The notes beneath the pieces are model-generated. The model did not search any database. It was given only the letters and a program-made list of their open reading frames with translations, and was not told the DNA's origin. A stretch of 38,614 nt of DNA, taken from assembly GCA_000990305.1 (NCBI GenBank), contig LBPR01000013.1:1-38614 (forward strand). Reading direction: 5' to 3'. The position numbers and the translations under genes were made by a program. Below, piece after piece: positions 29,501-31,720 of the stretch. The DNA is from Candidatus Roizmanbacteria bacterium GW2011_GWC2_34_23 (GTDB taxonomy: Bacteria; Patescibacteriota; Microgenomatia; UBA1406; GWC2-37-13). Numbering within the stretch: position 1 is the first letter of the stretch; every line of letters begins with the position of its first letter.

Positions 29501-29887
29501 TTAAACAATATCTAATCCTTTTACTCTCGAAAAGTGTCTTTTGTTAAGAGTTACTAAACTTAAATTGTAGACTAAACAAGTAGCCGCTATCATAATATCA
29601 AGATCTTCTATGATTTCTCCTCTTTGTTTTAAATTCTTTCTCAAGCTACCAAATTCTTGCGCTATTTTTTGATTGAGTCCATAGGTTTTACTAAGACCAG
29701 AAAAAAACTCAAGAATGGTTGACTCTGCATTTTTATTTTTTGATCTAAAAATTCCTTCGTAAAGTTCGGATAAACAAATATAACTTGAGACTAATTTTCC
29801 TTTAAGTTCATTTATTAATGTAACTTGTTCCTCTTTTCCTCTAAGATAATCAATAATTACGGAAGTGTCCAAAAAATATGTTTTCAT
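29501..29887 (-). CDS. PIN-domain VapC-like toxin
   Basis: 'YFLDTSVIIDYLRG', 'ICLSELYEGI', 'EDLDIMIAATCLVYNLSLVTLNKRHFSRVKGLDIV'. Confidence 0.9.
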   Translation of the reverse strand: MKTYFLDTSVIIDYLRGKEEQVTLINELKGKLVSSYICLSELYEGIFRSKNKNAESTILEFFSGLSKTYGLNQKIAQEFGSLRKNLKQRGEIIEDLDIMIAATCLVYNLSLVTLNKRHFSRVKGLDIV

Positions 29888-30135
29888 ATTTTTATTTGTT
29901 TTTTTCTCGATTTCTTTTTAAGAACTTCTCCCCAAATAGAATCGTTATCCAAATCTGTATTCTTAAAAGCTCCTGCATATTTTTTGATAATCGACTTTTT
30001 TATATCATCAGTTGCGGTAAGAGTTGCAAAAGGTCTCCCCTTTTTTGTAATTGTAAAATTCTCAACATAAGGAAGCAACGCTTCAATCTCTCCAAATTTT
30101 CTCCTTAAATCAGATATAGGAATGATTGTATTCAT
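29884..30135 (-). CDS. Phd/YefM-like antitoxin
   Basis: 'IIPISDLRRKFGEIEALLPYVENFTITKKGRPFATLTATDD'; ATGA overlap with the VapC-like gene. Confidence 0.82.
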   Translation of the reverse strand: MNTIIPISDLRRKFGEIEALLPYVENFTITKKGRPFATLTATDDIKKSIIKKYAGAFKNTDLDNDSIWGEVLKKKSRKKQIKI

Positions 30136-30144
30136 ATAAGTAAT

Positions 30145-30200
30145 ATATTAACTAATGTTATATTAATTGTCAAGTGATTAATCACTGGTTTAATCACTTG
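30145..30200 (-). promoter_or_regulatory. Promoter (TTGACA-17-TAATAT) with overlapping inverted repeat, candidate TA operator
   Basis: Minus-strand TTGACA (30173-30168) and TAATAT (30150-30145); inverted repeat CAAGTGATTA...TAATCACTTG at 30171-30200 overlaps the -35. Confidence 0.65.
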
Positions 30201-30299
30201 CTTATATTATCTCCTTAACGATCGTTTACAAGATAAATTATTTATTTTTCAAAATTCGCTTGACTTTGTTGTAGTAGTAGTAGTAGTATGATTTTTAAT

Positions 30300-31037
30300 A
30301 TGATAGGTGGAGATCAAACAATTCCAGGTGCAGATGGGAGAGGAGGCACACCTTTTTCAGTGATTGAACAGGTTGACGTTCTTAAAGCTCCAGGAAAAAG
30401 CGGAGGTAAACGTTTTTCTGAAATTGAACAGCTAGATAGCTTAAAAGGTTCAAGACAAATTAAAGGAGCAGGACTTGACATGGACGCAATTCAAAAGGTT
30501 GCTGAAGCTGATCCAATCCACGAACCGGGAGAATTTAATTTTGATCAAGTCAAAAAAATTATTAGTAGGAAAGTACTTGATGCAAGTCAACTTGATCAAG
30601 CAATTAAAACAATTACGGATTTATTGGGTGATACCCCTACAATTAAATCCAATTGGCGAGATGAATATATGAAAGATAGTGACGGTGGTAGAGCCACTGA
30701 AAGGAGAATAAAGGACGTAGAGCAGCTTTCTGAAGCAATTGGAACAATTAGGGATTTATTAGGTGATGATGTATTTATGAATAAAACCGGTTGGCGTGAT
30801 GAATATCAAGCACAAAATGAAGCAAAAACACCTTTTGAAAAAATAGAACAAGTTGATCGTTTTCCACAAGTGGGTTTGAATCCAGAAAGAATTGCTGCAA
30901 GACAAAAAATGGATGCTGAACAAACAGGAAAAGTTGTAAAAGAAATTTTAGGAGAACTTGCAAAAGGGGGAAATGTTTCCAAGGCGGTGCTACCAAAACA
31001 AACTTTAGCTACTTCTGCACCTAAAGCTTCAAAATAA
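30300..31037 (+). CDS. Internally repetitive protein of unknown function (ORF may start at 30288)
   Basis: Repeats PFSVIEQVD/RFSEIEQLD/PFEKIEQVD and LDQAIKTITDLLGD...WRDEY / LSEAIGTIRDLLGD...WRDEY. Confidence 0.7.
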   Translation: MIGGDQTIPGADGRGGTPFSVIEQVDVLKAPGKSGGKRFSEIEQLDSLKGSRQIKGAGLDMDAIQKVAEADPIHEPGEFNFDQVKKIISRKVLDASQLDQAIKTITDLLGDTPTIKSNWRDEYMKDSDGGRATERRIKDVEQLSEAIGTIRDLLGDDVFMNKTGWRDEYQAQNEAKTPFEKIEQVDRFPQVGLNPERIAARQKMDAEQTGKVVKEILGELAKGGNVSKAVLPKQTLATSAPKASK

Positions 31038-31112: not shown

Positions 31113-31142
31113 TTGACATAGTGAACAAGTGTTTACTATAAT
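31113..31142 (+). promoter_or_regulatory. lexA promoter with embedded SOS-box-like site
   Basis: TTGACA 31113-31118, 18-nt spacer, TATAAT 31137-31142; TGAACAAGTGTTTA at 31122-31135 versus CGAACRNRYGTTYG. Confidence 0.75.
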
Positions 31143-31150
31143 AGTTGTCT

Positions 31151-31720
31151 ATGATTGAAGACAGACTTTCTAGTATTAAAAAATTTTTCCGTAAGAATCG
31201 CCGACTTCCTTCTTATTCTGAGATGTTGAAGCTTTTTAATATCTCTTCTAAGAATGCTGTTTTTAAAATAATTAATAAATTAATTGATCTCGGATTCATT
31301 GAAAAAGAAAGTAAAAAATTATCCCCAACAAAAAAGTTTTTTGCTCTCCCCCTTCTTGGAATTATAAAAGCCGGTTTTCCAATTTTGGCTGAAGAAAATA
31401 AAGATTATCTGACGATTGACGACTATTTAATTGAAAATCCCCAAACATCATTTCTCCTTAAGGTTTCGGGTGATTCAATGACCGGAGTCGGAATATTTGA
31501 AGGGGATATTGTTATAATTGAGCGAAAAAAAGATATTAATACCGGCAGTATTGTTCTTGCCCAAATTGATAACGAATGGACTTTAAAAATATTAAAGACT
31601 GACCGGAAAAAACATATTAATTATCTGGAGGCCGCTAATCCCAAATACCCGCCTTTTTACCCAATTAATGATCTACAGATCTATGGTATCGTAAGAGGTG
31701 TCATCAGAAAGATTAATTAA
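31151..31720 (+). CDS. lexA: LexA repressor
   Basis: Winged-helix N-terminus; cleavage-site Ala-Gly 'GIIKAGFPI'; catalytic Ser 'VSGDSMTGVGIFEGDIVI' and Lys 'TLKIL'. Confidence 0.92.
   Translation: MIEDRLSSIKKFFRKNRRLPSYSEMLKLFNISSKNAVFKIINKLIDLGFIEKESKKLSPTKKFFALPLLGIIKAGFPILAEENKDYLTIDDYLIENPQTSFLLKVSGDSMTGVGIFEGDIVIIERKKDINTGSIVLAQIDNEWTLKILKTDRKKHINYLEAANPKYPPFYPINDLQIYGIVRGVIRKIN

Follow-up and report, generated by a model that had tools for sequence, protein, structure and literature searches.

A GTA-repeat promoter spacer in Candidatus Roizmanbacteria is a candidate phase-variation switch and one of a wider family of trinucleotide-array promoters

The 38,614-nucleotide stretch of DNA analysed here (the window; contig C13 of a 0.7-Mb assembly, genome G000) contains a promoter that is probably phase variable and of the spacer type, in which slippage of a (GTA)6 microsatellite would change the distance between the -35 and -10 hexamers (Table 1). 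The promoter belongs to the GTA/AGT class of a wider array-promoter family, and it precedes an orphan ORF flanked by a divergent Phd/VapC-like module on one side and by lexA on the other. The anatomy of these promoters, their recurrence, the 3-nt series of their spacers, the spacer optimum of native promoters, the coding ORFs downstream and unit numbers that differ before homologous genes are all seen directly. Switching by spacer length appears to be the most economical explanation of the recurrence, the 3-nt series and the native preference for 16–18 nt.

Table 1. Coordinates of the array promoter and neighbouring features in the window
Feature	Position	Strand	Basis
-35 hexamer TTGACT	30260..30265	+	sequence
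(GTA)6 microsatellite, most of the -35/-10 spacer	30271..30288	+	sequence, TRF, shuffles, arrays of the family
-10 hexamer TATGAT; spacer 21 nt; 7 nt to ATG 30300	30287..30292	+	sequence
Alternative weak -10 TAGTAT within the array; spacer 18 nt	30284..30289	+	9/12 matches
Orphan ORF, 245 aa, internally repetitive, without known family; probable leaderless start 30300	30300..31037	+	coding score, family searches
lexA promoter TTGACA-18-TATAAT with LexA-type box; native spacer yardstick	31113..31142	+	sequence
lexA, conserved downstream neighbour; marker for the slot in sister species	31151..31720	+	family match
Divergent promoter TTGACA-17-TAATAT serving the Phd/VapC-like module; also a native spacer yardstick	30145..30173	-	
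Genes for a VapC-like toxin and a Phd-like antitoxin; neighbours on the upstream side, outside the switch	29501..30135	-	

The elements that an earlier note had read in the window (TTGACT, (GTA)6, TATGAT and the ATG) all lie exactly where it placed them, and the spacer is 21 nt as it claimed. The array is a perfect repeat (100% match by TRF) located between the two hexamers, as in spacer-type phase-variable promoters, and TATGAT has the final TA of the array in common with it. The pattern TTGAC-N0-9-(AGN)5 has a single match in the window, and 100 dinucleotide shuffles produced no match; these shuffles, together with the genus- and class-wide searches against controls described below, rule out a chance microsatellite. 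A coding repeat or longer ORF is also ruled out, as the frame is stopped by a TGA at 30261 and the start codon in the family comes after the -10. No Rfam match was found in the window. The note had further proposed that loss of one GTA would give a near-optimal spacer, and this holds, the step from 21 to 18 nt reaching the native optimum of 16–18 nt. At its present 21 nt the promoter should be weak or off; with TAGTAT available at a spacing of 18 nt, some leak is possible and the present allele may not be fully off.

The genes on either side are preceded by classical leaderless promoters, TTGACA-17-TAATAT-9-ATG for the Phd/VapC-like module and TTGACA-18-TATAAT-8-ATG for lexA. The lexA promoter (31113-31142) overlaps a Gram-positive-type LexA box (GAACAAGTGTTTAC), and lexA orthologues across the genus retain a similar box with spacers of 16 or 18 nt. 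At the toxin-antitoxin promoter there is an imperfect palindrome, CAAGTGATTAATCACTGGTTTAATCACTTG (30171-30200), which is a probable operator. When non-repetitive leaderless promoters were sought at the same loci as the arrays, with any spacer from 9 to 30 nt allowed, 26 of 35 (74%) had spacers of 16–18 nt, as against 15 of 56 array promoters (about 27%; Fisher p = 1e-5; 0.001 when the lexA orthologues are left out).

The same anatomy was found at more than 60 sites fetched from relatives (one genome per species), their spacer lengths separated by multiples of 3 nt, and this recurrence strongly supports the promoter reading given in the note. With TTGAC-N0-9-(AGN)5 there are 34 distinct sites in 12 of the 20 genomes of the genus and a single control match; other genera of the family add about 33 sites, a few of them evident chance matches, with 13 control matches outside the genus. 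Among 382 genomes of the class, 15 contain matches to a strict pattern with a free gap, 24 in all, and the reversed control gave none. All but one of these 24 are arrays, with spacers of 11–26 nt in steps of 3, and five of the 23 arrays lie in three other families of the class; in 350 genomes from other classes of the phylum, a similar pattern had no match. Within G000 itself there are more array promoters on contigs C4, C2, C10 and C23. In the sister species G006 and G019 the lexA slot is occupied by different, unrelated ORFs, each behind TTGACA and a trinucleotide array.

A search from the repeat side gives a similar picture. There are 42 AAG arrays of at least five units in the genus, of which 25 follow TTGAC and about 12 follow a related -35 (TTGAAA, TTGCAA); two lie before a -35, one falls in coding sequence and the remaining two are ambiguous. 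The eight genomes without array promoters have no AAG array of five or more units at all. AAG arrays upstream of a TTGACA box are present at L153:486-560 (G012) and L158:507-575 (G019), with 9 and 10.7 units respectively, before homologous genes whose products are probably surface-exposed, an arrangement nearer to that of Mycoplasma gallisepticum vlhA. A dispersed repeat with CTTATAACCTACAA (L007:377-399; L061, about 2250 and 3720; L068, about 3855) recurs ahead of several array promoters, at a distance of some hundred bases.

The common form of the promoter is TTGACA-AG(AAG)n-TANAAT-6 to 12 nt-ATG. TTGAC is invariant in ten aligned sites, and the start codon is 6–12 nt past the -10 in 47 of 61 sites, a count in which the window was entered with ATG 30300 at 7 nt. 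AAG units dominate, and AGT, AGG and mixed units are also present. Counted by hand from the fetched sites, the AAG spacers are 11 (2 sites), 14 (12), 17 (15), 20 (19), 23 (4), 26 (3) and 29 nt (1). The dominance of AAG, on one strand and in one orientation at most sites, might suggest that the AAG/AGT tract is the recognition sequence of a dedicated regulator or a sequence-reading sigma factor, in which case it would mark a regulon, its length would be tolerated and switching would be beside the point. The two arrays upstream of a -35 fit such a model, as does the GAA tract of M. gallisepticum vlhA, which shows that such a tract can act through its unit number outside the spacer (PMC6258824). 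However, AGT, AGG and mixed units take the same position with the positions of the boxes unchanged, the array invariably forms the spacer of boxes that otherwise fit the consensus, G048 has a homologous gene whose predicted promoter contains an unrelated 17-nt spacer, and no candidate regulator was found. We therefore consider a recognition tract unlikely.

Spacer-length switching also predicts that unit numbers differ between relatives, and spacers do differ before homologous genes. In one group they are 20 (L080), 14 (L086), 20 (L068) and 11 nt (L069), and L068 and L086 share one chromosomal site, with 20 versus 14 nt; in a second group they are 14 (L067), 17 (L075a) and 14 nt (L123), and in a third 17 (L114b) and 23 nt (L117). 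The G048 homologue of one orphan family has the repeat-free predicted promoter TTGACA-17-TATGAT-7-ATG, which, judged from its sequence, is a natural control for functional spacing. On the lexA side the comparison of the window with a related genome is mixed: the unit count differs (7 in G006 versus 6 in G000), but the total spacer is 21 nt in both.

Many spacers lie outside 16–18 nt and the -10 boxes at L069b, L101 and L112 are degraded, as would be expected of ordinary constitutive promoters with a low-complexity spacer that drifts neutrally in length, many copies being in decay. Against such drift, the ORFs are intact and coding, the boxes are near consensus, the spacers keep a strict 3-nt phasing, and the genomes without array promoters have no AAG arrays; of the explanations weighed here we give this one the least credence.

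At four chromosomal sites (lexA, dnaJ-like, guaA-like and L062/L072/L074/L080) different species carry non-homologous ORFs between flanks that can still be aligned. In G018, three upstream segments of 167 bp are 99% identical and are followed by spacers of 20, 17 and 20 nt and three different ORFs. These loci (L082, L083 and L085, on contigs C6, C30 and C57) have one truncated transposase-like fragment together with the array promoter before the three ORFs, and two of the contigs break off at the segment they have in common, which looks like a branch point in the assembly. Such a slot with conserved flanks and exchanged contents, and one upstream segment before three ORFs, would be accounted for if array promoters were homology tracts for cassette exchange, recombination at the promoter swapping the orphan ORF and array length being a by-product. 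Neither a common 3' boundary nor a recombinase was found, however, several homologous ORFs stay in place with differing array lengths, and a tract of 25–35 bp is short for homologous recombination, so that exchange as the whole explanation is quite improbable. Cassette exchange and switching may nevertheless operate together.

All 64 downstream ORFs have positive coding scores, and 59 score best in frame. Of the 64 proteins scanned, one was recognised as a radical SAM/SPASM enzyme (L109) and a few had marginal matches; the others are without known family. The L109 gene (L109:3094-4407, G028) is the sole clearly recognisable gene behind an array promoter and resembles peptide-modifying enzymes. 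A membrane-like segment is present in about one sixth of the proteins, and most are thus predicted to be soluble. A single family common to all of them was ruled out, as there are small homologous groups only. The AlphaFold model of a five-member orphan family is small and helical (pLDDT 77), and neither the PDB nor the viral libraries gave a significant match to it. The repeat-free homologue in G048 adjoins a phage-type tyrosine integrase (L134:1-3333), and a few genes beyond it is a gene with long SAARSAAESAA repeats; phage origin as a general rule was set aside, a phage-type integrase being seen beside this homologue only.

The earlier note had described the protein encoded in the window as internally repetitive and unlike known proteins, and both points are borne out: it has three TPFxxIEQVD-like blocks and two LLGD...WRDEY blocks, and it is without a match in Pfam, NCBIfam, PHROG and PADLOC. 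By codon usage the ORF is coding, with the second-highest coding score of the 64. No relative was found in the genus or in the phage and plasmid records searched, and among 73 genomes of the family the sole match is weak (26%, G071, E = 0.005). Its AlphaFold model is unusable (pLDDT 39). The size and gene content of G000, together with a T4SS_pilin-family type IV secretion pilin, point to membership of the Patescibacteria (CPR).

Repeat changes in a promoter spacer are, as the note stated, an established means of phase variation in Neisseria and Haemophilus; examples are N. meningitidis porA (poly-G) and H. influenzae hifA/hifB (TA repeat), in which the repeat lies between -35 and -10 (summarised in PMC3899988). 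The window promoter resembles these in having a simple repeat in the spacer, where unit number would set spacer length and thereby transcription. In porA and hifA/hifB, however, the repeats are mono- or dinucleotides and serve a few surface genes of pathogens, whereas here trinucleotides (AAG, AGT/GTA, AGG) occur at more than 60 sites in a small-genome lineage, before genes that are probably leaderless and nearly all orphans. The (GAA)n tract of M. gallisepticum vlhA, mostly of 6–12 units and situated about 40 nt before the point where transcription begins, is alike in its GAA/AAG trinucleotide array, in serving a gene repertoire of a reduced genome and in differing in length among orthologues, but the vlhA promoters lack a conserved sigma-70 sequence (PMC6258824), whereas the tract described here separates two consensus boxes as their spacer. 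The vlhA tract lies upstream of the core promoter and that of the window inside the -35/-10 gap; and where vlhA genes form a homologous lipoprotein haemagglutinin family, the 64 proteins here have no family in common. In N. meningitidis nadA the number of TAAA units likewise alters the spacing of promoter elements, but that repeat lies away from the core promoter and works together with the repressor NadR (PMC2791445). In the literature searched, which covered few subscription papers, we found no description of a repertoire of trinucleotide-spacer promoters before orphan genes in Patescibacteria.

In the switching model, slipped-strand replication would add or drop whole 3-nt units of the array filling the -35/-10 gap, and RNA polymerase with the main sigma factor would be efficient only near 16–18 nt, so that the gene would be active at the unit number that brings the spacer nearest to 17–18 nt, and silent or weak one unit to either side. 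The window locus, now at 21 nt, would reach 18 nt after losing one GTA, and in the AAG class 14 nt would be off, 17 nt on and 20 nt off. The window mRNA is probably leaderless, with its 5' end at or near ATG 30300. No MutS match was found in 19 of the 20 genomes of the genus, which would favour slippage, but G000 does have a MutS-like match. This lies in a long open frame of 1183 aa (G000:C15:2722-5214; L159, L160) in which the MutS ATPase domain is matched twice. There are counterpoints to switching: six GTA units are short for a high rate of slippage, TAGTAT could let the present allele fire, and the lexA-side spacer of G006 keeps its length despite the different unit number.

Genomes of the family carry a number of such promoters; each would control a single small orphan protein subject to rapid replacement, and a population would then be a mosaic of expression states, perhaps of variable traits facing hosts, phages or competitors. 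The broadest form of this proposal, in which interchangeable single-gene cassettes make up a phase-variable repertoire across the genome and a standard leaderless AAG/AGT-spacer promoter would turn ever-changing orphans on or off at random in each cell, we advance tentatively, doubt slightly outweighing confidence. If the proposal is correct, tract length should vary in 3-nt steps among metagenome reads at precisely these promoter sites, the promoter signature would flag more than 60 orphan genes as likely to be under changing selection, and an uncultivated small-genome lineage would have a systematic phase-variation repertoire that can be recognised by sequence alone.
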